The position numbers and the translations under genes were made by a program. 64,000 nucleotides of DNA, taken from Cocleimonas flava (GTDB lineage Bacteria > Pseudomonadota > Gammaproteobacteria > Thiotrichales > Thiotrichaceae). How positions within the stretch are numbered: the first letter of the stretch is position 1; each line of letters starts with the position of its first letter. Positions 21,152-31,488 of the stretch are shown here, piece by piece. The DNA lies in NCBI RefSeq assembly GCF_004339015.1, contig NZ_SMFQ01000002.1, positions 931,351 through 995,350 of the forward strand, read 5' to 3'. Below the pieces are notes generated by a model. The model worked only from the letters and a program-made list of their open reading frames with translations, was not told the origin of the DNA and searched no databases.

Positions 21152-21832
21152 ATGATTTTTTCTAGACCATCCTGCATGAAAATGCATCCATCAATAATTA
21201 TTAGCATTGGTATCCTAAGTTTTCTTAGTTTTAGCAATGCTTATGCACACAATAATGACCCTTTAACCGTTGATGAAATATCCCGAGTAGGAAACTTAGT
21301 CACCCCTCAAACCTTAGCTGCTAAATCTGAAGGTGGTGTAACGGTTAATGATAATCAGGAACTGTTATTGATTGAGCGTAACGAAGAAAAAGGTGCACCT
21401 AAGGATCAACGTCGCGCGGATGTCTATATCTACAACTACTCAACAGATGAATTAGAACAATCTCTGGTTGATTTAAACACATCAGAAATTATAAGCACCG
21501 TTACTAAACAGGGTGTGCAACTTCCTTTAACAGTAAATGAGCTTAAGCGAGCTAAAGAAATAGTGTTTGAGGATGAAGACGAGCGTCAGATTCTTGAACA
21601 TGAATACAATAGAATCACGTCACGTACACTTAATGATACATCTGAGCTAAATATTAAAGCATTTACTTTCACTGCAGACAGTTTGCCTAATAGAGTAAAC
21701 GAAGCGAGTAAACAATGCGGTATTCATCGTTGCGCACAGCTAATGCTGTATACCGATGAAAATATTGTATTTGAAATTTCACCGATCGTTAATCTATCTG
21801 CTGGTGTTGTAACCCAAAGAATTGGTTTTTAA
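21152..21832 (+). CDS. Exported protein resembling copper amine oxidase N2/N3 domains
   Basis: A 226-residue protein with an N-terminal signal peptide (hydrophobic 10-28, ending NAYA). The mature part starts DPLTVDEI, like the first motif of the small N2 domain of copper amine oxidases. It continues with an LLLIERNEEKG...RADVYIYNY strand pattern and ELEQSLVDLNTSEI, which resembles the N3 domain's 'Glu-x-x-Val-Asp-Leu'. The catalytic domain is missing here but is encoded by the next three genes. ATG at 21152 has GGTGAG upstream; a start at 21176 is possible. It lies two bases before the next gene, so the pair looks like a split amine oxidase. Assignment is by pattern only. Confidence 0.6.
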   Translation: MIFSRPSCMKMHPSIIISIGILSFLSFSNAYAHNNDPLTVDEISRVGNLVTPQTLAAKSEGGVTVNDNQELLLIERNEEKGAPKDQRRADVYIYNYSTDELEQSLVDLNTSEIISTVTKQGVQLPLTVNELKRAKEIVFEDEDERQILEHEYNRITSRTLNDTSELNIKAFTFTADSLPNRVNEASKQCGIHRCAQLMLYTDENIVFEISPIVNLSAGVVTQRIGF

Positions 21833-21834
21833 GT

Positions 21835-23013
21835 ATGAGTAATAAAATAATCAAAGCCGGTTTCGCGCTTTTCACTTTATCTTCGTTGTTATTTGCCAGT
21901 TCAAGTTTTGCGCGACCAAACACCTTCTCTTGCGCTGCTGGTAATACAATTTCCAAAACTTTTTCTTCAGGAGCCGCTTGGGATCTTTGCTGGGAAGTGA
22001 GAGATGAAGAGGGCGTGGTGTTAAGTGATATTCACTATAAAGCAGCTAATTCAACCAGAAGAAAAGTTATAGGTGAAATGAGTCTCTCTCAAATTCAAAC
22101 AGAATATGATGATGATTCAGCTGATCAATTCCTGGTTACAGACTTCGGCTTAGGCGGTAATAGTTTGCAAACACTTAATACTTCTATGTGTGAGGGAGGT
22201 CAATTACACGAATATGCAGGTAGAAATGTATTGTGTGAAGTCTCTAGTGCCAACGGTTATATTTATCGATATAGAGACAATATCCGCAGACAAGGTAGCA
22301 AACTAGAAATACTAAGTGCATCAAACATAAACTCAAGAGAGTTTATCATTCGTTCGACTTTTCTCGAAAACGGCACGATAGAAACGGGTGTTGGTATTAC
22401 CGGTCAATTCACGAAAACAACGACAGATTCAAATGCAGGTTGGCCTGTAACGTCGCAAAATAAACTCTCTACCAGCTTCACCGATCATTTCTTTTGGCGA
22501 CTCGATTTTGATATAGGATCCAGTAATAGTAACGATGTTGTTGAACAAATTAAAAGTGTTCCATCTTCTGATCGATTAACTAAAACTAAACAGACTCAAA
22601 CCATATCGTCAGAACTTGCAGCATCATTTACGCCAGCTGATAAAAAATTCTGGCGCATTAAAGACCAAAGCGAAACAAATAATGCAAACCAGCCCGTGTC
22701 TTATGAAATGGTATTACTCAACTATGCACAACAGAGTAAAGGCAACAGTAGCTCACCATGGTTAAAAAATGATGTTTATATCACTGCTTATAATGCCTGT
22801 GAAAGATTCGCTGTTAACAATACAGCAAGTAGTTGCGGCAGCAACGTTTCTGAGTTTGTAAATTCACAAAATACAAACGCTAAAGATATTGTTGTCTGGT
22901 ACCGCATGGCTCATCACACACTTCCAAGAGATGAAGACTTTTCTCCTGTCGCTGTTCAGTGGAGTAACTTTATTCTACTGCCTCGAGACTGGACATCGAT
23001 TAATCGACTGTAA
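21835..23013 (+). CDS. Copper amine oxidase catalytic-domain homologue lacking active-site residues
   Basis: A 392-residue exported protein (signal peptide ending SSSFARP). It aligns along its length with the two next proteins: AAWDLCWEVRDEEGVVL, YDDDSADQFLVTDFGLGG, the FLENGTIE strand, FFWRLDFDI and the terminal PRDEDF...LLPRDW. At the key positions it differs. The putative base Asp is Leu100, the cofactor Tyr is Arg168, and the His-x-His copper pair is Phe215/Asp217. The third copper His appears shifted (HHTLPR). It should therefore be unable to make topaquinone or bind copper in the usual way. It may be a structural or regulatory partner of the neighbours. Confidence 0.75.
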   Translation: MSNKIIKAGFALFTLSSLLFASSSFARPNTFSCAAGNTISKTFSSGAAWDLCWEVRDEEGVVLSDIHYKAANSTRRKVIGEMSLSQIQTEYDDDSADQFLVTDFGLGGNSLQTLNTSMCEGGQLHEYAGRNVLCEVSSANGYIYRYRDNIRRQGSKLEILSASNINSREFIIRSTFLENGTIETGVGITGQFTKTTTDSNAGWPVTSQNKLSTSFTDHFFWRLDFDIGSSNSNDVVEQIKSVPSSDRLTKTKQTQTISSELAASFTPADKKFWRIKDQSETNNANQPVSYEMVLLNYAQQSKGNSSSPWLKNDVYITAYNACERFAVNNTASSCGSNVSEFVNSQNTNAKDIVVWYRMAHHTLPRDEDFSPVAVQWSNFILLPRDWTSINRL

Positions 23014-23025
23014 TGAAAATATAAA

Positions 23026-26000
23026 ATGATTATTCAGTTAGAAAATAGTTTCAGCCGCATACTGCTTAGTATTCTACTCGCATTAACAGTTCTGTCTTTG
23101 CCCACAAAAAATGCAGAAGCGGCCGAACATTGTAGCGATGATTATTTTATTAATGAGACTCTCCCTAATGGGTCGAAATGGGATATGTGTTGGGAACACC
23201 GACAACGCGAAGGCATTATTTTCCATCATGTCTACTACACGCCTAAAAATGGGCAACGCCGTCTTATATTAAACCATGCCGCTGTAGCCCAAATACACGT
23301 TCCTTATGACGATAATGGAGCGCGTTATCACGATATTTCCGATTATGGTATTGGTGGAAATAATATTATTAGCTTAAATAGCGATGAATGTCCGGCAGGT
23401 GATTTACTCAATTTTTCTGGTAAAAACGTTTTATGTAAGCAGATTGAATCTAGACCATTAGCGCATAAAAGCGGCAACAATGTTGTTAATGCTAAAAATC
23501 TAAGTCTTTTTAGTGTTTCGCCTGTTGGTGCTTATTACTATATTCCTACCTGGCGTTTTATGGACGACGGTACAATTGAACCATGGATAGGCGCAACAGG
23601 AGCATTACAACGTTATGGATCTAATCAGAGCCGTGGTTGGAAACTAGGTGATAACCGTGTTGGTATCGCTCATCTACATAATTTTTTCTGGAAACTCGAT
23701 TTCGATTTAAACGGATCACACCTTGATGATGTTGTTGAGGAGATTAACTTCCCATTAGTCAGTGGTAAAAGACAAAGAACCATTACAACTTTTAATACGG
23801 AAGCAGCACGCAAAGTTAATCCAGATACGATGCGTCATTGGCGAATAAAAGATAAAACACTTAAAAATATTAATAATCATAGTGCTTCATACGATATTTT
23901 AATCAATGAAGCTGGCCATCAGGATATAGGTCCAGCGAGTGAACCCTTCACGCACAATGACTTTTATGTCACTAAACAAAAAAATGAAGAGAAGTTTGCT
24001 TCTCATAATCCAACTGGTGCAAGTAACCTGGCAGAATTTGCCAATGGTGAATCAATTACTAATAACGATATCGTGGTCTGGGCTGGCGTTACTTTCTATC
24101 ACATGCCACGTTCAGAAGATGCGCCACATATGGATGCGCATTGGAGCCACATAAAAATAGTGCCGCGTGACTGGCACGCATCGAATCCTTTAGGCAGTAT
24201 TCCTGTCAATACACCACCCACTGTCACTTCACTAAGTAATCAAAATACACAACAAGGTAGCTCTGTTAGTTTAGCTATTCAGGCGACTGATGTTGATGGT
24301 GATTCTTTAAGTTATTCAGCGGCGGGACTCCCAAATGGTCTTCAGATAAATAGTAGCTCAGGATTAATTTCAGGGACTGCTTCAATTGCTGGTAACTATG
24401 GTACGACCATAACTGTAAGCGATGGGAGTGACAGCAGTTCAATACTATTCAACTGGCTTGTATCTGCTAATACAAATACTGCACCTACAATTTCCTCTCC
24501 TGGGAATCAAACAGGTTTGGTCGGTAACAGCATAGATCTTGCTATTCAGGCAAATGATTCAGATGGTGATAGCCTGAGTTATAGTGCCACTGGGCTTCCC
24601 AATGGTTTGCAAATCAATGCAAATTCTGGGCGTATAACAGGTACCTTAAGTACTACAGGAAATTTTTCTACAACGGTTACTGTTAGCGATTCTTCGACAT
24701 CCGCTAACACATCTTTTAATTGGGTTATATCTTCCCCTACAAATTCAACGTCGAATGAAGTCTCTACTACGTCAATTACTATTAATGGCGCAGTCTCAGA
24801 TTGGAGCAGTTTAGAATACTTCAGTAATGATGCTGATGACATTAGTGGTCAAAATAATCAAATAGATTGGCTAAAAGTTGCTATTGCTCATAGCCCGCAA
24901 AATGTCTTTATGACTTATCAGAATAGACAAAATGTAGACCCTAGTAATACTTCAGGTTCCTATATTCCTTGGGGTTGGCAAGCTTTTCTAGATACAGATA
25001 ACAATGTAAATACCGGTTATCAACAAGGCTCTATAGGTGCTGATTACGTCATTAATGGCAATGTAATAGAACGTTATATAGGTACTGGTACCAGCTGGAG
25101 TTGGGATGTTGTAACTTCTTCAACGTTAATGTATTCAGGTGCTAATGTTGAAATGAGCTTTCCTCGTTCGAGTATTGGGAATCCTCAGAGCATGAAAGTG
25201 ATATTTCTGGGAGATAATGCTGCATTTAATGGTGATAGTACTGACCGATACCCAGATACTGGATTCTTTAGCTACACCTTTACGGGTTCTGGTTCACCTA
25301 ATTCAGCACCTATCGCTAATAATCAACAGCTTTCCGTTGGTAGTGGTGCCTCTATAAGTTTAATACTCACAGCATCTGATGCTGATAATGACAGTTTAAG
25401 TTATACCGTTAACCAACAACCTCAACACGGTTCTTTAAGTGGCTCTGCTCCTAATCTGGTTTATACCGCAGATGAGAATTACACGGGGTCAGACAATTTC
25501 CGTTTTCAAGCTAATGATGGTTTATTAAACAGTCAATCTGCCACTGTATCTATTACCGTAACAAACGGACAAACCAATGGGGCTATTGCTAACTATGTAA
25601 GCTCCCCCATATCGGTTAATGGAGATGATTCTGATTGGTCGACATTAATTCGTTTTGAAGACGATGCAGATGATGCTTCAGGAAATATTGATTGGCAGAA
25701 TGCGGCACTTGCGCATGACAGTTCTAAACTTTATTTGCTCTACAATAACAGAGGCAATATCGATCCAAACAACAGTTCTGGTTCTTATCTAGCATGGGGA
25801 TGGCAGACATTTATAGATACCGATAAGAACGCTTCTACCGGCTATCAGGCTGGTGCTATCGGTGCTGATTACGTTTTAGAAGGTAATCAAATTCAGCGTT
25901 ACGACGGAAGCGGCAGTAATTGGAGCTGGGCTCACTTGGGTTCAGTTGAATCTCAATATCAAGGTAATATAGCTGAATTAGCATTGCCTCTCAGCCAATT

Positions 26001-27378
26001 AGGCAACCCTGATTCAATTAGAGTGAGTTTTTCAGGCGATAGTAGTTCTTATGCTGGTTCTGGTGCAGACTTATATCCCAACGGACAAAATAATGCTCAA
26101 TCCAGTATTCGCTTTTTCGAATACGACATTACCGGCGGAGATTCAGGCTCTAATGAGCGACCCATCGCTTATACACAGTCTGTCTCTGTAAATTCAAATT
26201 CTACTGTTAACATTACATTAGTAGCATCCGATCCAAATGACGATAATCTTACTTACAGTATTGTATCTAACCCGTCTAATGGATCTTTATCCGGTGTTGC
26301 CCCTAATCTGACTTATGTTCCAAATAGTAATTTTATAGGGCAAGACAGTTTCACGTTTAATGTAAATGACGGTAATGCCATTAGTTCTAATGCTACCGTC
26401 AGCATAAATGTTTCTGGAGCTGAAGGTGGGTCTTACTCCAACCCTGTAAGTAGCATATCCATCGATGGCAATAACGAGGAGTGGGCTAGTCTCTCTGCTT
26501 ATACACAAGATGGTAATGACATCGGCGGCATCAATAACGTTATTGATTGGCAACGTGCTGCGACTGCTCATAACGGATCAGATATTTATTTCATGTACCA
26601 AAGTTACAATGCTATCAATGCCGATGCTAATAATGGCAGCTTTATCAATTGGGGTTGGCAAACATTTATAGATACCGATTCTAATCCTGATAGCGGCTAT
26701 AAAATAGGCACTGTCGGCGCTGAATATGTTATCGAAGGTACTCAAATTCAGAGCTACACTGGTGATGGAAGTAGTTGGAGTTGGAACAATTTCGCAACAG
26801 CCACAGTTAGCTATAATGCCAACACCGTGGAATTAGGCTTTGCCAGAAGTCTTATTGGAAATCCGGATAAGATGCGAGTAATTTTTGTAGGAGACAATGA
26901 TGCGTTTGGCGGTAGCAGTATAGATACTTACCCTAACGCACTGGATTATTTTGAGTACCAACTTTCAGGCGGTACTTCAAGTTCATCAAGTCGACCAGTT
27001 GCATCTTCTATATCATTTAGTGTCAGGAGCAATACGACTAGTGAGATTACTTTATCCGCATCTGACCTTGATGGCGATACACTTACTTACCAACTATTAG
27101 ACCAACCTAACAACGGCATTCTTTCGGGTAGTGGTCAAAACTATATTTATACACCTAATTTAGATTATGTAGGTGAAGATAGCTTTAGATATATAGCCAA
27201 TGATGGCACTTTTGATAGTTCTGTTGAAACAGTTGTATTAAATGTAGCTGAAAATGGAACAAATAGTGGTACAAATACGAATACAGACACTGATAATTCT
27301 AGTGGAGGGGGTTCAGTCCCACTTGAATGGCTAATATTACTTAGCTTTATTGGATTGTTAAGATTTAGAATAAAATAA
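23026..27378 (+). CDS. Giant exported copper amine oxidase-like protein with Ig-like/CBM9-like repeats and GlyGly-CTERM tail
   Basis: 1450 residues. Signal peptide 1-33. Residues ~35-388 match the amine oxidase catalytic domain: Asp103 (YHDISDYG, likely base), VGAYYY (167-172) at the topaquinone site with Tyr170 as the candidate precursor, HLH (216-218) and His359 (FYHMPRSED) as copper ligands. Next come two putative-Ig (He_PIG-type) repeats at ~394-570. Then follow three rounds of a ~170-residue CBM9/DOMON-like domain (DWSSL...W..AF.DTD...GADY) plus a ~90-residue cadherin-like Ig domain up to ~1395. The end SSGGGS, hydrophobic helix, RFRIK is a GlyGly-CTERM (rhombosortase) signal. It is probably surface-exposed and amine-oxidising. 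The N2/N3 part is not in the same chain. Substrate unknown. Confidence 0.8.
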   Translation: MIIQLENSFSRILLSILLALTVLSLPTKNAEAAEHCSDDYFINETLPNGSKWDMCWEHRQREGIIFHHVYYTPKNGQRRLILNHAAVAQIHVPYDDNGARYHDISDYGIGGNNIISLNSDECPAGDLLNFSGKNVLCKQIESRPLAHKSGNNVVNAKNLSLFSVSPVGAYYYIPTWRFMDDGTIEPWIGATGALQRYGSNQSRGWKLGDNRVGIAHLHNFFWKLDFDLNGSHLDDVVEEINFPLVSGKRQRTITTFNTEAARKVNPDTMRHWRIKDKTLKNINNHSASYDILINEAGHQDIGPASEPFTHNDFYVTKQKNEEKFASHNPTGASNLAEFANGESITNNDIVVWAGVTFYHMPRSEDAPHMDAHWSHIKIVPRDWHASNPLGSIPVNTPPTVTSLSNQNTQQGSSVSLAIQATDVDGDSLSYSAAGLPNGLQINSSSGLISGTASIAGNYGTTITVSDGSDSSSILFNWLVSANTNTAPTISSPGNQTGLVGNSIDLAIQANDSDGDSLSYSATGLPNGLQINANSGRITGTLSTTGNFSTTVTVSDSSTSANTSFNWVISSPTNSTSNEVSTTSITINGAVSDWSSLEYFSNDADDISGQNNQIDWLKVAIAHSPQNVFMTYQNRQNVDPSNTSGSYIPWGWQAFLDTDNNVNTGYQQGSIGADYVINGNVIERYIGTGTSWSWDVVTSSTLMYSGANVEMSFPRSSIGNPQSMKVIFLGDNAAFNGDSTDRYPDTGFFSYTFTGSGSPNSAPIANNQQLSVGSGASISLILTASDADNDSLSYTVNQQPQHGSLSGSAPNLVYTADENYTGSDNFRFQANDGLLNSQSATVSITVTNGQTNGAIANYVSSPISVNGDDSDWSTLIRFEDDADDASGNIDWQNAALAHDSSKLYLLYNNRGNIDPNNSSGSYLAWGWQTFIDTDKNASTGYQAGAIGADYVLEGNQIQRYDGSGSNWSWAHLGSVESQYQGNIAELALPLSQLGNPDSIRVSFSGDSSSYAGSGADLYPNGQNNAQSSIRFFEYDITGGDSGSNERPIAYTQSVSVNSNSTVNITLVASDPNDDNLTYSIVSNPSNGSLSGVAPNLTYVPNSNFIGQDSFTFNVNDGNAISSNATVSINVSGAEGGSYSNPVSSISIDGNNEEWASLSAYTQDGNDIGGINNVIDWQRAATAHNGSDIYFMYQSYNAINADANNGSFINWGWQTFIDTDSNPDSGYKIGTVGAEYVIEGTQIQSYTGDGSSWSWNNFATATVSYNANTVELGFARSLIGNPDKMRVIFVGDNDAFGGSSIDTYPNALDYFEYQLSGGTSSSSSRPVASSISFSVRSNTTSEITLSASDLDGDTLTYQLLDQPNNGILSGSGQNYIYTPNLDYVGEDSFRYIANDGTFDSSVETVVLNVAENGTNSGTNTNTDTDNSSGGGSVPLEWLILLSFIGLLRFRIK

Positions 27379-27392
27379 TAAGAGCAAACATT

Positions 27393-28922
27393 TTGAATAA
27401 ATTACTCATAAAAATAGTTTTACTATTTACTCTTTCCTTACTCGGGTTTAGTCACGCTAATGCCGCTGAAAATTGTGGTGATGAATTTTATGTGAATGAA
27501 ATATTTCCCAATGGAGCACGTTGGGATATGTGCTGGGAACATAAAGATAGAGAAGGCATCATATTCAAAAGTATCTATTTTACGCCGAAAAATGGCACAC
27601 GCAGAATGGTTTTAAACCAGGTTGCTATTGCCCAAATACATGTACCTTATGACGATAATGGTACTCGTTTCCATGATTTATCTGATCTCGGGATCGGTGG
27701 TTTGAATATGTTAGAACTTCAATCTGATGAATGTCCGGATGGAAGTCTGATTCCTTTCAGTGGAAAAAACGTACTCTGCAAACAAACCACAAAACAGGAC
27801 ATTTCATTTAAATCAGGCACTAATACCGAAAATGGTTATTATTTAAGTTTATTCAGTGTTTCACCGGTTGGCGCTTATTACTATATACCTACCTGGAAAT
27901 TTTTTGATAATGGTAAAATTGAACCCTGGATGGGAGCCACTGGTGCGTTGCAACGTTTTGGTACAGACGATAGTACAGGCTGGTTATTAGCTGATAACAG
28001 AGTAGGTATCGCACATTTACATAATTTCTTTTGGAAATTAGACTTCGATCTTAATAAAACTTATCTAGATGATGCTGTAGAAGAAATTAATTTTAATCTC
28101 GTAAATGGAAAAAGAGAACGCAGTATTATCCCTTTTTCTACGGAAGCAGCTCGTAAAGTTAACCCCGAAACCATGCGTCATTGGCGAGTCCGTGATAAAT
28201 CAGCTAAAAATGAAAATGGTCACAGCATCTCTTATGATGTCATTCTTAGTGAAATGGGTCATCAGGATATAGGCCCAGCCAGTGAACCATTTACTCATAA
28301 TGACTTTTTCGTTACCACTCAGAATGATAACGAACGCTTCGCCTCACACAATACGAGTGGCGGTACAAACCTGGATGAATTTGTAAATGGTGAAAGCATC
28401 GTCGATAACGATATTGTTGTCTGGGCTGGTGTCACCTTTTACCATATGCCGCGCTCAGAAGATTCACCCCACATGGATGCGCACTGGAGTCATTTAAAAA
28501 TAGTTCCGCGTGACTGGAATGCAAGCAATACCTTAAGTGATGATGTGACTAATAACGCACCAACCATTGCAACTGTAGCCAATCTAAATAGTCAAACCTC
28601 CGACTCTATCACTCTCAACATTCAAGCTAGTGATTCAGATGGTGATAGCTTGATTTATAATGTTTCTAATTTACCTACTGGCTTATCTATAAACACCAGT
28701 TCAGGTGTAATTAGCGGTGTTATTTCAACAGCAGGAACCTATCTTGTGCAAATTACTGTGTCCGATGGACAGCAAAGTGCTTCTACTCAGTTTAATTGGG
28801 TGGTATCTGCAGCATCTACTGGTTCAAGTTCTGGTGGTGGATCACTTTCAATAATGCTGTTATTCAGTCTACTGGGATTAATTTTATTCAATGTATTTTT
28901 CAGATTTAAGAACAATGATTAA
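27393..28922 (+). CDS. Copper amine oxidase-like protein with one Ig-like repeat and GlyGly-CTERM tail
   Basis: A 509-residue paralogue of the preceding protein, starting with TTG and a signal peptide ending HANA. The catalytic-domain residues are kept: Asp95 (FHDLSDLG), VGAYYY (159-164; cofactor Tyr162), HLH (208-210) and His351 (FYHMPRSED). One putative-Ig repeat follows at ~390-480, then SSSGGGS, a hydrophobic helix and a basic end, another GlyGly-CTERM signal. It lacks the CBM9-like repeats of its neighbour. The two are close in sequence and so probably a tandem duplication with later domain gain or loss. The stop codon overlaps the start of the YtkA-like gene. Confidence 0.8.
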   Translation: MNKLLIKIVLLFTLSLLGFSHANAAENCGDEFYVNEIFPNGARWDMCWEHKDREGIIFKSIYFTPKNGTRRMVLNQVAIAQIHVPYDDNGTRFHDLSDLGIGGLNMLELQSDECPDGSLIPFSGKNVLCKQTTKQDISFKSGTNTENGYYLSLFSVSPVGAYYYIPTWKFFDNGKIEPWMGATGALQRFGTDDSTGWLLADNRVGIAHLHNFFWKLDFDLNKTYLDDAVEEINFNLVNGKRERSIIPFSTEAARKVNPETMRHWRVRDKSAKNENGHSISYDVILSEMGHQDIGPASEPFTHNDFFVTTQNDNERFASHNTSGGTNLDEFVNGESIVDNDIVVWAGVTFYHMPRSEDSPHMDAHWSHLKIVPRDWNASNTLSDDVTNNAPTIATVANLNSQTSDSITLNIQASDSDGDSLIYNVSNLPTGLSINTSSGVISGVISTAGTYLVQITVSDGQQSASTQFNWVVSAASTGSSSGGGSLSIMLLFSLLGLILFNVFFRFKNND

Positions 28923-29322
28923 ATCTATTTTAATTTTCGGCCTGCTTTTATATTTCCAATTTCTTTACGCCAACAACACTGCTAGCTGGAAAAAATCACA
29001 AGTATCTGAAAACGAACACTACTCTGTTGATTTACTGTGTAAGCACCCCCCCACTTTGGGCGGTTTTCTTCCATGTAGTTTGGTTCTTAGTGATAATTCT
29101 AATCCTATATCTAATGCTATTATTAAAATAGAGGGTGGTATGCCAGAACATCATCATGGCTTACCTACCTCTCCAACTATAAGTTGGGATAGTGAGAAAA
29201 AAGCATATATTATCAAAGGCTTAAAGTTCAGTATGCCTGGTGCTTGGCAACTTAAATTTCTGATTGAAAAAACTAAAAAGCTGCCACGTGATATTGTCAC
29301 TATTAATTTTGTCATTGATTAA
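28915..29322 (+). CDS. Exported YtkA-like protein
   Basis: A 135-residue protein with signal peptide 1-20 (ending FLYANN). The start at 28915 overlaps the previous stop by eight bases. GGMPEHHHGLPTSP (about 78-91) is the YtkA-type histidine signature; the fold is an immunoglobulin-like sandwich, and in other operons such proteins accompany copper or heme proteins. Residues 43-52 (KHPPTLGGFL) are encoded by a copy of the dispersed C-tract repeat, so part of the chain is repeat-derived. A role in metal delivery to the neighbouring oxidases is an inference from context. Confidence 0.7.
   Translation: MIKSILIFGLLLYFQFLYANNTASWKKSQVSENEHYSVDLLCKHPPTLGGFLPCSLVLSDNSNPISNAIIKIEGGMPEHHHGLPTSPTISWDSEKKAYIIKGLKFSMPGAWQLKFLIEKTKKLPRDIVTINFVID
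29039..29070 (+). repeat. Dispersed C-tract repeat, locus 8, inside the YtkA-like gene
   Basis: GTAAGCACCCCCCCACTTTG, then GGCGG and TTTTCTT: a recognisable copy read in frame as codons 43-52 of the YtkA-like gene. The T-tract carries one C, keeping the frame open. Confidence 0.8.
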
Positions 29323-29337
29323 TTTTCAAAAAATCCA

Positions 29338-30537
29338 ATGATTAAGTATTCTTTTAATCTAATTTTTACCTTATTTTCGATACTAATTGTTTCTTCAATT
29401 AGTGCTAATAGCTGGTCAGATAAAGACATTCAACAGATCTCGGCGTTCACCCTTAAAAAACTACAACCCGTAAAAGACCCGTCAAACAAATATTTATTAG
29501 ATAAAAACGTTATTTCATTAGGTGAAAAACTATTTTCTGATACACGTTTAAGTAGTAATAAAAAGATATCCTGTGCTTCTTGTCATATAAAAGAAAAATC
29601 TTTTACAGACAATCATAACCTTGCTGTTGGCTTACAAAAAGGATTTAGAAACACACCAACGCTTTTGAATTCAGCACACCATAACTGGTTTTTTGCTGAT
29701 GGAAGTAAAGACAGCCTTTGGGCACAAGTATTAAGTTCTATTGAAAACCCCGCTGAACAAAACTTCACCAGAGTAGAGTTATTTAATTTATTCATTAATG
29801 ATAATACTTATAAAACTCTGTACGAATCTGTATTTAAACAATCTCTAACTAAAACCTCTATAGCTACAAATCTACCTGCTAAGGCTGGCCCTAATGCAGA
29901 TTTACAAGGTTTAATAGAATGGAAAAAACTTAATAGCAATCAAAGAGATAGAATAAATTTATTTTTTACTAATATTGGCAAATCGATTGCTTCTTATGTC
30001 ACCACACTTGAATCTAAAGAATCACGTTTTGATAAATTTGCGTATGAGTTATCGGTCACAGGACGTTCTTCACTTCTTAATAAATCTGAAATAAACGGCT
30101 ATAAACTTTTTATAGATCAAAAATCAGGTTGTTCAAATTGTCATAGCGGTCCACTTTTTACTAATAAAGAGTTTCACAATATAGGAACCGGGATTCTTGC
30201 GCACGATAACGGTAGATCAGAAGTTATAAATGCTGTTATTCATGATGAGTTTAATTGTTTAAGCAAATACAGTGATGCAAAAAAAGAAGAGTGTGTTGAA
30301 TTAAATTACATCAATAGAAACAAGCATGGTCTTTCTGGTGCTTTTAAAACACCGTCTCTAAGAAACCTATCTAAAACTGCACCTTATATCCATGATGGCA
30401 GGTTTAATAATTTAGAAGAAGTTTTAAGATATTACAATAGTATTGATGAAAAAAGGGCGCTAGAAGTTGATCTTCCACCTATTTCTTTAACTGTTAAAGA
30501 ACAACAAGATATTGTTAATTTCTTACTTACTTTATAA
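29338..30537 (+). CDS. Di-heme cytochrome c peroxidase / MauG family protein
   Basis: A 399-residue exported protein (hydrophobic signal 4-23). Two heme c attachment sites are visible, CASCH (79-83) and CSNCH (265-269). Family segments are LGEKLFSDTRLS (about 61-72), NTPTLLNSAHH (about 105-115), GSFKTPSLRN-like GAFKTPSLRNL (about 336-346), and the APYIHDGRF motif around 351-359. The family includes hydrogen-peroxide-reducing peroxidases and MauG, which oxidises protein side chains to build quinone cofactors. It lies 15 bp after the YtkA-like gene in the amine oxidase cluster, so a role in cofactor maturation or electron acceptance is plausible but unproven. Confidence 0.85.
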   Translation: MIKYSFNLIFTLFSILIVSSISANSWSDKDIQQISAFTLKKLQPVKDPSNKYLLDKNVISLGEKLFSDTRLSSNKKISCASCHIKEKSFTDNHNLAVGLQKGFRNTPTLLNSAHHNWFFADGSKDSLWAQVLSSIENPAEQNFTRVELFNLFINDNTYKTLYESVFKQSLTKTSIATNLPAKAGPNADLQGLIEWKKLNSNQRDRINLFFTNIGKSIASYVTTLESKESRFDKFAYELSVTGRSSLLNKSEINGYKLFIDQKSGCSNCHSGPLFTNKEFHNIGTGILAHDNGRSEVINAVIHDEFNCLSKYSDAKKEECVELNYINRNKHGLSGAFKTPSLRNLSKTAPYIHDGRFNNLEEVLRYYNSIDEKRALEVDLPPISLTVKEQQDIVNFLLTL

Positions 30538-30632
30538 CCCTATTTGTCTGGGCTAAACACTTTTTTATCTCTTAACATTATGTAACAATGCGTAACAATA
30601 TTCACTCTAATGGGCTAAATGGATTTTTTCTG

Positions 30633-31052
30633 ATGAAAGTTATACCGCTAATATTATTGTCTGTTCTTTTTACGGGTTGCAGCAATTTTAATACTGCTAC
30701 TAATACTATGTCATCACATCCGCTTAAATCTCAAAAAGACGTCAATATTGAAAAAACACTAACAAGTGGGACCTGGAAATACGAACGCCAAGCTGATGAT
30801 TGTAGAGATACATCGTGGTCACAAACGTTTTATAAAAACAGATATTACAAGTCTGTAGGAGATGCGTGTTTAATACCCGATGCATTTTCTGTAGATGCTG
30901 AAAATTGGCATATCAAACGTCAGATTTTATATGTTACAAATCTTTCACCTATCAACGGTGACGATATAATTCTTAAGTACGGAATTGATTTCTTAGACAA
31001 GAATAAACTCATCTTAAGCAGTGGAAATTATAAATATACTTTTGTTAAGTAA
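30633..31052 (+). CDS. Small lipoprotein of unknown function
   Basis: 139 residues from the ATG at 30633, chosen because the product then starts with a clean lipoprotein signal, MKVIPLILLSVLFTGCS, with the lipid-modified Cys at 16. An in-frame ATG at 30588 would add 15 residues in front of it. The mature part is polar, with two Cys (ADDCRDTSW and GDACLIPDAF) that could form a disulfide. No known domain was recognised. It is the last gene of the amine oxidase run. No clear terminator follows. Confidence 0.6.
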   Translation: MKVIPLILLSVLFTGCSNFNTATNTMSSHPLKSQKDVNIEKTLTSGTWKYERQADDCRDTSWSQTFYKNRYYKSVGDACLIPDAFSVDAENWHIKRQILYVTNLSPINGDDIILKYGIDFLDKNKLILSSGNYKYTFVK

Positions 31053-31069: not shown

Positions 31070-31381
31070 TTACTTACAAACACCTAAACTATATTCATAG
31101 ACATTTTTATCACTACAGGCCGTACAGCTATTCGAATAGGTCTTTTTGATAGTTGAAGGAAAGGGTGCTTTTACGCATCTAACCTTAGTATCTACAACTG
31201 CACAAACTGGCTTATATTCTCTCGTACACATTTCAGGTCTTGGATTTGAACACACCTGAGCTTGTGTATTATTTTTATTTTCTAAATTAGAAGAATAATT
31301 TTTATCTGCTTTAGTTTGACATGCGACAACAGCAAATATAGCTAAAGTAATAATAAAAATTTTCTTAGCTATTCTTGGCAT
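31070..31381 (-). CDS. Kazal-domain lipoprotein
   Basis: 103 residues from the ATG at 31381, which gives a lipoprotein signal with lipobox AVVAC (Cys21). The longer reading frame runs back into the dispersed repeat and is not a plausible start. The mature part has seven cysteines in a Kazal-like pattern: VCSNPRPEMCTREYKPVCAV, then YSNSCTACSD and GVC. Kazal domains usually inhibit serine proteases; the reactive-site residue is not obvious. It is convergent with the small lipoprotein gene, with only 17 bases between them. Confidence 0.75.
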   Translation of the reverse strand: MPRIAKKIFIITLAIFAVVACQTKADKNYSSNLENKNNTQAQVCSNPRPEMCTREYKPVCAVVDTKVRCVKAPFPSTIKKTYSNSCTACSDKNVYEYSLGVCK

Positions 31382-31423
31382 GCTAATCACCAACCTTGTT
31401 AACAGGGAATGAATATATAGCCT

Positions 31424-31488
31424 TAAAGTAGGGGGGTGCCTTTTTAATTCTTTATAAGGCACCCCCCTACTTTAGAGCACTTTTTTAT
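31424..31488. repeat. Dispersed C-tract repeat, locus 9 (perfect inverted pair)
   Basis: TAAAGTAGGGGGGTGCCTT (31424-31442) is the exact complement of 31456-31474, a 19 bp perfect stem with a 13-base loop. The right copy continues with GAGCAC and TTTTTTAT. It lies between the Kazal gene and the xth stop codon. This is the best-formed inverted pair in the window. Confidence 0.95.

Follow-up and report, generated by a model that had tools for sequence, protein, structure and literature searches.

The di-heme enzyme MauG forms a bis-Fe(IV) state and makes the tryptophan tryptophylquinone (TTQ) of methylamine dehydrogenase. Genes for MauG-like enzymes also occur together with those of partner proteins. 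The copper site of CorA comprises two histidines, a water and a tryptophan-derived kynurenine (PMC3912023, PMC3621798), and corA is co-transcribed with the gene of a MauG-like enzyme which its authors suggest makes the kynurenine (PMC3912023). MbnP-MbnH and MopE-SACCP are described as further pairs (PMC3621798). Copper amine oxidases (CAOs), as far as they have been characterised structurally, are described as homodimers with domains D2 to D4 along one chain (PMC3382800). They make their cofactor themselves. Here we describe a locus of Cocleimonas flava that holds relatives of both kinds. The window analysed is a stretch of 64,000 nucleotides from this organism (contig NZ_SMFQ01000002.1, positions 931,351 to 995,350), and its open reading frame (ORF) listing shows an operon of seven plus-strand genes, N-A-B-C-Y-M-L, at 21152-31052. 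It encodes a predicted separate N-terminal unit of a CAO (N), three homologues of the CAO catalytic domain (A, B and C), a YtkA-like protein (Y), a MauG-type di-heme enzyme (M) and a small lipoprotein-like protein (L). The gene set is real, conserved and unusual. The separate N-terminal unit together with a presumably dead partner, A, makes it an apparently new variant of the CAO kind; no relevant publication on a split CAO or on a CAO with MauG was found in the open-access PMC literature searched. The best explanation of the whole, to which we give somewhat less than an even chance, is a multi-subunit CAO with a dead A partner, in which M oxidises Y.

By sequence, N is recognised weakly, with 17.8 bits to PF02727 (cut-off 21), 35 bits to PRK11504 (cut-off 651) and amine oxidases as its best PDB profile matches (E 0.007-0.06). 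Its AlphaFold (AF2) model, calculated from a 26-row alignment in which C189, R193 and C194 are invariant, reached a pLDDT of 86.5 and a pTM of 0.75. All 50 matches listed in a Foldseek comparison of this model with the PDB were CAO chains (TMq 0.50-0.58 over 203-216 columns), and hence the predicted fold marks N as a CAO D2-D3 unit. This concurs with a first-pass annotation of the window, made from the sequence alone, which had called the protein N2/N3-like and separate from the catalytic chain. Of 283 loci that matched in the locus search, the best 80 were kept, and the counts given for named loci refer to these. At 71 of them N was located just upstream of a catalytic gene (34/34 Streptomyces, 4/4 Herpetosiphon and 33 others); at nine it was not found on the strand and flank read. 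Its recurrence at this place across lineages argues that the division between N and the catalytic chain, as judged from gene order, is an old trait of the lineage and not a frameshift. At L064, an N of 606 residues was considered as a fusion and rejected: the frame was called from too early a start, and the N-like part occupies its end.

The scores of A, B and C are all above the PF01179 cut-off of 27 bits, and no further match to PF01179 was found in the genome holding the window (4.49 Mb in 10 contigs). The profile search thus placed the three proteins among the CAOs and not in another family. The first-pass description of three catalytic-domain homologues stands with regard to family, and requires correction with regard to activity, since a complete active site is present in B and C only. 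Aligned to AGAO, C keeps the base Asp, the cofactor Tyr, the HxH pair and the third His, the catalytic residues of that enzyme. The corresponding segments in B read HDISD, GAYYY, HLH and YHMPR, and the two proteins are 68% identical across the catalytic domain. The AF2 model of the C domain reached a pLDDT of 89.4, and all 50 Foldseek matches listed were CAOs (TMq 0.73-0.80). Window A has none of the five residues, i.e. no base Asp, cofactor Tyr, HxH or third His.

The same division was seen among the relatives. Of 121 rows in the residue alignment, one, the truncated L027, was dropped; two rows are ordinary CAOs and some are near-copies of one another (e.g. L044/L046 and L065-L068). Its B-type set is composed of 50 rows (window B and C and 48 from Gammaproteobacteria and Chloroflexota) plus 34 Streptomyces rows, and its A-type set of 34 rows including window A. 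All five catalytic residues are present in 84/84 B-type rows. Among the A-type rows, 16 keep none, 12 keep one and six keep two. A and B were sorted by the alignment columns of the HxH, which renders the difference at these positions circular; in the columns independent of the sorting, the A-type rows have the base Asp in 0/34, the cofactor Tyr in 6/34 and the third His in 18/34. The Streptomyces B-type proteins may go by the name tyramine oxidase subunit B, for which no paper was found in the open-access PMC literature searched. Two genomes (G042 and G044; L004 and L005) carry an ordinary full-length CAO scoring 408-409 bits to PF01179 in addition to the split one.

A and B follow each other closely. 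B is encoded directly after A in 33/33 A rows of named loci, and in two Thiothrix loci (L059 and L062) the two genes have been doubled together. A tree of 97 rows was calculated by a quick search with five ordinary CAOs as outgroup and eight of the 34 Streptomyces rows; long branches were flagged. In this tree A forms a single clade (SH-aLRT 100), and all gammaproteobacterial B proteins except L064 form another (44 rows, SH-aLRT 95). The inner order of the two clades is broadly alike, not in every branch, and the Methylococcales rows are placed differently. For 33 pairs, A-A and B-B distances correlate with r 0.64, a value reached in 0/2000 permutations. The simplest reading suggested by these sequences is a single ancient duplication; one of the copies would then have lost its active site and become the kept partner of the other. 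The succession of A and B likewise suggests a heteromer with a dead partner. Alternatively, A may be a separate protein that retains the fold and binds a substrate, a polymer or a surface, with B as an ordinary homodimer, which we regard as unlikely. It would account for the separate frame of A, 386-491 residues long in its loci, and for the 34/34 Streptomyces and 14/45 other loci with a B and no A, which indicate that B-type proteins can work in the absence of A; it would also suit G038, where A lies beside N, Y and M and B on another contig. The A-B order of the 33/33 rows from named loci disagrees with it, as does the description of CAOs as obligate dimers whose arms reach the active site of the other subunit (PMC3382800), which favours a pairing of paralogues. 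At eight Thiothrix- and Leucothrix-type loci (L043, L047-L052 and L055), B-type genes of 459-584 residues with complete active sites stand by themselves: neither N nor A, Y or M was seen on the strand and within the flanks read, which for L048 include little downstream sequence.

Beyond the catalytic domain, B continues with Ig/cadherin-like repeats (Big_9, He_PIG, Cadherin_5), three repeats of about 180 residues and a Gly-rich/hydrophobic/basic tail; in C, one Ig domain and a tail of the same type follow. The three long repeats, at window 24748-27060, share GWQxFxDxDxN and similar motifs. They gave no Pfam match near a cut-off, and the one repeat searched against the PDB had no match; a CBM9/DOMON fold was suspected and is not claimed. 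Similar stretches were seen by eye in a Thiothrix B (L037), whose C-terminal end lacks a tail of this type. Signal-like segments are visible by eye at the beginning of A, B and C, and export is likely on this sequence evidence. The first-pass annotation had gone further and proposed a surface system, for which support is weak. A rhombosortase is present in the genome (141 bits, cut-off 84), while the B tail scored 12.2 bits over the full length of the GlyGly-CTERM model TIGR03501, below its cut-off of 15.5, and the C tail gave no match to this model.

The sequence around the cofactor Tyr is SPVGAYYY in B and C, and the Asn-Tyr-Asp/Glu cofactor motif is altered throughout the split family. In the 50 B rows, the preceding position is Ala in 39, Ser in five, Glu in four and Gln in two; in the 34 Streptomyces rows it is Trp in 32 and Tyr in two. 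The following position is Asn in 23 B rows, Tyr in eight, Val in six, His in five and others in the rest, with Asp/Glu in 0/50, and it is Glu in 34/34 Streptomyces rows. The motif reads GAYNY in Herpetosiphon and mostly GWYEY in Streptomyces. For AGAO, the exchange Asn381Ala is reported to slow topaquinone formation 180-fold and to lower kcat 160-fold, topaquinone still being formed (PMC9491219), and for HPAO-1 an Asn-to-Ala exchange before the cofactor Tyr is reported to leave 5-10% of the cofactor (PMC3382800). B may therefore be slow, be compensated elsewhere or differ in its chemistry.

M contains two CxxCH heme motifs (CASCH and CSNCH), and its Tyr366 aligns with residue 294 of MauG, as counted in the printed alignment. 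The axial-position Tyr is found in 43/43 M rows, at least two of which repeat a genome (L035/L113 and L038/L114). M scored 148.2 bits to TIGR04039 (MbnH; cut-off 362.85) and 131.5 bits to TIGR03791 (MauG; cut-off 443.85). Because it misses both curated cut-offs, M is classified by sequence as a relative of MbnH and MauG and a member of neither; the MauG-type di-heme neighbour of the first-pass annotation is thereby recovered through PF03150 and the Tyr at the MauG 294 position.

The linkage of M to the split CAO was traced in a family survey of 63 genomes. PF01179 matched in 28 of them, one (G041) with a partial match of 28.9 bits only, leaving 27 with split-type genes as judged by score and frame length. 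Thirty M matches were obtained; 23 above 480 bits and the partial copy G031:C33 (325.8 bits, 257 positions) make up 24 strong ones. All 24 lie beside split CAO genes, the linkage being given in G007 by a B-like tail at a contig edge and in G038 by A and N only, so that the co-occurrence of CAO and di-heme genes on which the first-pass annotation had staked its case is conserved. The six weaker matches (G015, G023, G031:C44, G034, G043 and G046; 146-357 bits) have no adjoining CAO. Three family genomes with a split CAO are without M (G010, G032 and G033); coordinates and locus lengths place their CAO genes near contig ends, and in G032 Y stands at a contig edge. The named loci include 31 with A-B. 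At 23 of these M was found or at least 2.5 kb was read after the last B, which makes them testable, and 15 of the 23 have M. It was found at 0/13 testable B-only loci, neither M nor Y was found at the 34 Streptomyces loci, some of which are short, and M was absent at E<=1e-30 from all eight Streptomyces/Herpetosiphon genomes tested, whose B-type protein is complete. Seven further genomes, covering eight loci (L030, L053, L056 and L060-L064), were tested for M. A full M was present in three: in G438 beside the CAO, in G441 (Thiothrix eikelboomii) beside the other A-B locus and in G442 on a contig not read. Weak matches were obtained in G440, where the match falls into two pieces, and in G437, where it is partial; G439 and G443 gave none.

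It had been proposed in the first-pass annotation that the di-heme enzyme helps to build or to re-oxidise the CAO cofactor. In this form, M would build, repair or re-oxidise the quinone of B and C, whose altered Ala-Tyr-X motif would slow self-processing. The linkage of all 24 strong family genes, the Ala of 39/50 B rows, the slow or incomplete topaquinone formation of the AGAO and HPAO-1 variants and the MauG-type axial Tyr would all be expected. Nevertheless, split CAOs whose active site is complete occur in genomes in which no M was found at E<=1e-30, namely the eight Streptomyces/Herpetosiphon genomes tested, despite their GAYNY and mostly GWYEY motifs; a split CAO without M was also found in G414. 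M is also absent near eight of the 23 testable A-B loci, though three of these are second loci. Its usual partner, moreover, is Y, mostly in genomes without a split CAO. We therefore abandon the proposal as the leading one and consider it improbable.

The pairing of Y with M was examined in a class survey of 369 genomes, with M at E<=1e-55 and Y at E<=1e-6. Split-type CAOs were found in three genomes (G000, G044 and G414); in three more, frames 643-710 residues long scored 91-111 bits and resemble ordinary CAOs. M was found in 18 genomes and Y in 21. Y adjoins M in 18/18 genomes with M, 16 of them without a split CAO; G305 is counted within the 18 with a partial M match and Y about 0.6 kb away. 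Y without M at the survey threshold was found in G257, G262 and G403, which counts against a tight pairing rule. At L138:6671-8548 Y and M are fused in one frame of 625 residues, next to a 5'-nucleotidase/SoxB-like gene. From their distribution, Y and M constitute a pair of their own, independent of the split CAO. As the pairs occur mostly without the split CAO and are fused once, and as M is absent from the Streptomyces/Herpetosiphon genomes tested, an action of M on Y is more probable than a part in building the CAO cofactor.

The neighbours of the pair vary and include, among the neighbourhoods listed, MauE-like, amidohydrolase and SoxB-like proteins and a protein without family. The SoxB-like neighbour scored 91.8 bits, below the cut-off. 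In five loci (L104-L107 and L115) M is followed by a protein that carries ...AH(I/V)KWFV close to its N terminus and whose L104 copy weakly matches MauE (16.8 bits, cut-off 27). An amidohydrolase-like protein accompanies the pair at L109:5455-7862 and L110:4922-7336, from two genomes of one genus (G027 and G028) that have a split CAO elsewhere. At L140 and L141 the pair is near two conserved genes of no known family, one with LGEFWAADQI after its start; its L140 copy had no NCBIfam match.

The YtkA-like identity given to Y in the first-pass annotation agrees with its PF13115 score. The conserved features of Y are GGMxxHxHGLPTxP, C42/C54 and W111, which are invariant in the alignment and also in the broader set. 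The HxHG motif is present in 8/8 M-paired YtkA domains and in 0/10 unpaired ones that could be aligned, in a comparison in which 12 of 30 loci were unalignable and uncounted and the profile was built from M-paired Y; the unpaired domains mostly have Met-rich stretches in its place. A kynurenine special to M-paired Y was considered and rejected as evidence, the Trp being found in 9/10 YtkA domains without M. A search of the PDB sequences with the Y profile did not bring up CorA or MopE. By analogy with pairs of the CorB-CorA type, on which our view of Y-M is modelled, a modification of Y may be inferred, and the pair is probably a new member of the group in which a MauG-like enzyme has a dedicated partner.

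A simpler role is conceivable for M, namely that of a peroxidase removing the H2O2 of the CAO, with Y as an accessory electron carrier or copper buffer. CAOs are described as yielding H2O2 (PMC3382800), several cytochrome c peroxidases are among the PDB relatives of M, and BthA, in which His and Tyr are the ligands of the six-coordinate heme, is reported as efficient in H2O2 reduction (PMC6405878). The strict conservation of the axial Tyr, a ligand ascribed to Tyr294 of MauG by a study cited in PMC6405878, counts against this role, though BthA shows that Tyr alone is compatible with a peroxidase. Since Y-M occurs mostly without the split CAO, H2O2 from that enzyme is not the general reason for the pair. 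We rate this role as rather unlikely.

In the multi-subunit reading preferred here, N, A, B and C would form an exported copper amine oxidase. Both B and C, the latter a duplicate of the former, would bind copper, make their own topaquinone and convert a primary amine by oxidation into aldehyde, NH3 and H2O2. N would supply the D2-D3 shell that is in-chain in ordinary CAOs, and A, the dead paralogue, would be kept as one half of an A:B heterodimer that has a single active site. With H2O2 as its oxidant, M would oxidise its partner, the small HxH protein Y, which would thereafter handle copper. The Y-M pair may have been recruited to the operon because an amine oxidase needs copper and yields H2O2. 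A more specific version, in which the H2O2 of N, dead A and live B feeds M and M turns the Trp or another residue of Y into a copper ligand in the manner proposed for CorB-CorA, is unlikely.

Several observations weigh against the multi-subunit reading. B is without the Asn on which rapid formation of topaquinone depends in AGAO and HPAO-1, and might for this reason not self-process normally. The six A rows with a Tyr at the cofactor position belong to one clade, which includes Leucothrix. In G038 (L112) the order N-A-Y-M departs from the rule of A followed by B; among the other family-survey genomes, part were checked for such exceptions. The correlation of A and B distances could come from common descent alone. 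M is absent at L030, L041, L056 and L059-L063, of which L041, L059 and L062 belong to genomes whose other A-B locus has M, and G414 has a split CAO and no M. Extra M matches without an adjoining Y were found (G113:C158 and G356:C114). Finally, the Trp corresponding to W111, present in 8/8 M-paired and 9/10 unpaired domains, is a family trait and hence no special target.

If the more specific version, with a residue of Y turned into a copper ligand, is true, a single operon would couple the oxidation of amines with the handling of copper and with a ligand derived from a protein, and Y-M would represent a new, widespread class of modifying pair. The split lineage allows one to ask how the two active sites of a CAO dimer affect each other, and its rewritten motif which residues topaquinone formation really needs. 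Y-M, occurring far beyond the split-CAO operon, is a concrete candidate for a further protein modification of the MauG type.

Features of the operon in the window, with predicted identities
Gene	Predicted product	Length	Position	Strand	Evidence
N	Separate CAO N2/N3 (D2-D3) unit	226 aa	21152..21832	+	Weak sequence match, AF2 model and Foldseek
A	CAO catalytic-domain homologue, degenerate active site	392 aa	21835..23013	+	PF01179, 111.5 bits
B	CAO catalytic domain, complete active site	1450 aa	23026..27378	+	PF01179, 138 bits
C	Second B-type CAO catalytic domain, complete active site	509 aa	27393..28922	+	PF01179, 133.2 bits
Y	YtkA-like protein	135 aa	28915..29322	+	PF13115, 34.9 bits (cut-off 25.9)
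M	MauG/MbnH-type di-heme enzyme	399 aa	29338..30537	+	PF03150, 133 bits (cut-off 25.6)
L	Small lipoprotein-like protein without clear family		30588..31052	+	

All seven ORFs lie on the plus strand, as first annotated, and are separated from N to L by 2, 12, 14, -8, 15 and 50 bp. The range given earlier, from an eight-base overlap to 95 bp, corresponds to the C/Y overlap and to a start of L at 30633, which yields a lipoprotein-like signal by eye. A further ATG is open upstream of Y at 28891. L had no Pfam match and a weak NCBIfam score of 18.3 bits; its relatives follow M in 3/46 loci only (L024, L026 and L027), all Cocleimonas-titled. The listed ORFs flanking the operon on both sides are in opposite orientation, and just downstream, at 31070-31462 on the minus strand, a small gene encodes a Kazal-type inhibitor domain (24.3 bits, cut-off 21). 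A promoter and terminator scan gave sites no more numerous than in shuffled sequence. The nearest named relative locus is from an uncultured Cocleimonas (Thiotrichaceae), with 89% identity to C. Searches of plasmids in which C and a B from Streptomyces served as queries returned no close split relative, all matches being below 60% identity; those listed share 22-28% and bear names such as primary-amine oxidase.

Compared with the described systems, M resembles MauG in its two CxxCH motifs, the Tyr at position 294 and PF03150, and differs in its score, which is far below the MauG cut-off, and in its gene neighbours, Y and a CAO. Similar to MbnH-MbnP, SACCP-MopE and CorB-CorA, the locus combines a MauG-like di-heme gene with a partner, and Y has an HxH and a conserved Trp; in contrast to MbnH-MbnP, M falls short of the MbnH cut-off (148 bits, with 362.85 required), and a search of Y against the NCBIfam models gave nothing at E<=1. 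With other YtkA-like domains (PF13115) Y has the M.G.W core in common, whereas M-paired Y carries HxHG(L/M/F/Y)PT where unpaired relatives are mostly Met-rich. B and C share with AGAO, ECAO and HPAO the catalytic fold and all five active-site residues. In contrast to these CAOs, N2/N3 is encoded by a separate gene, a putatively dead paralogue, A, precedes B, and the Asn-Tyr-Asp/Glu motif is replaced.

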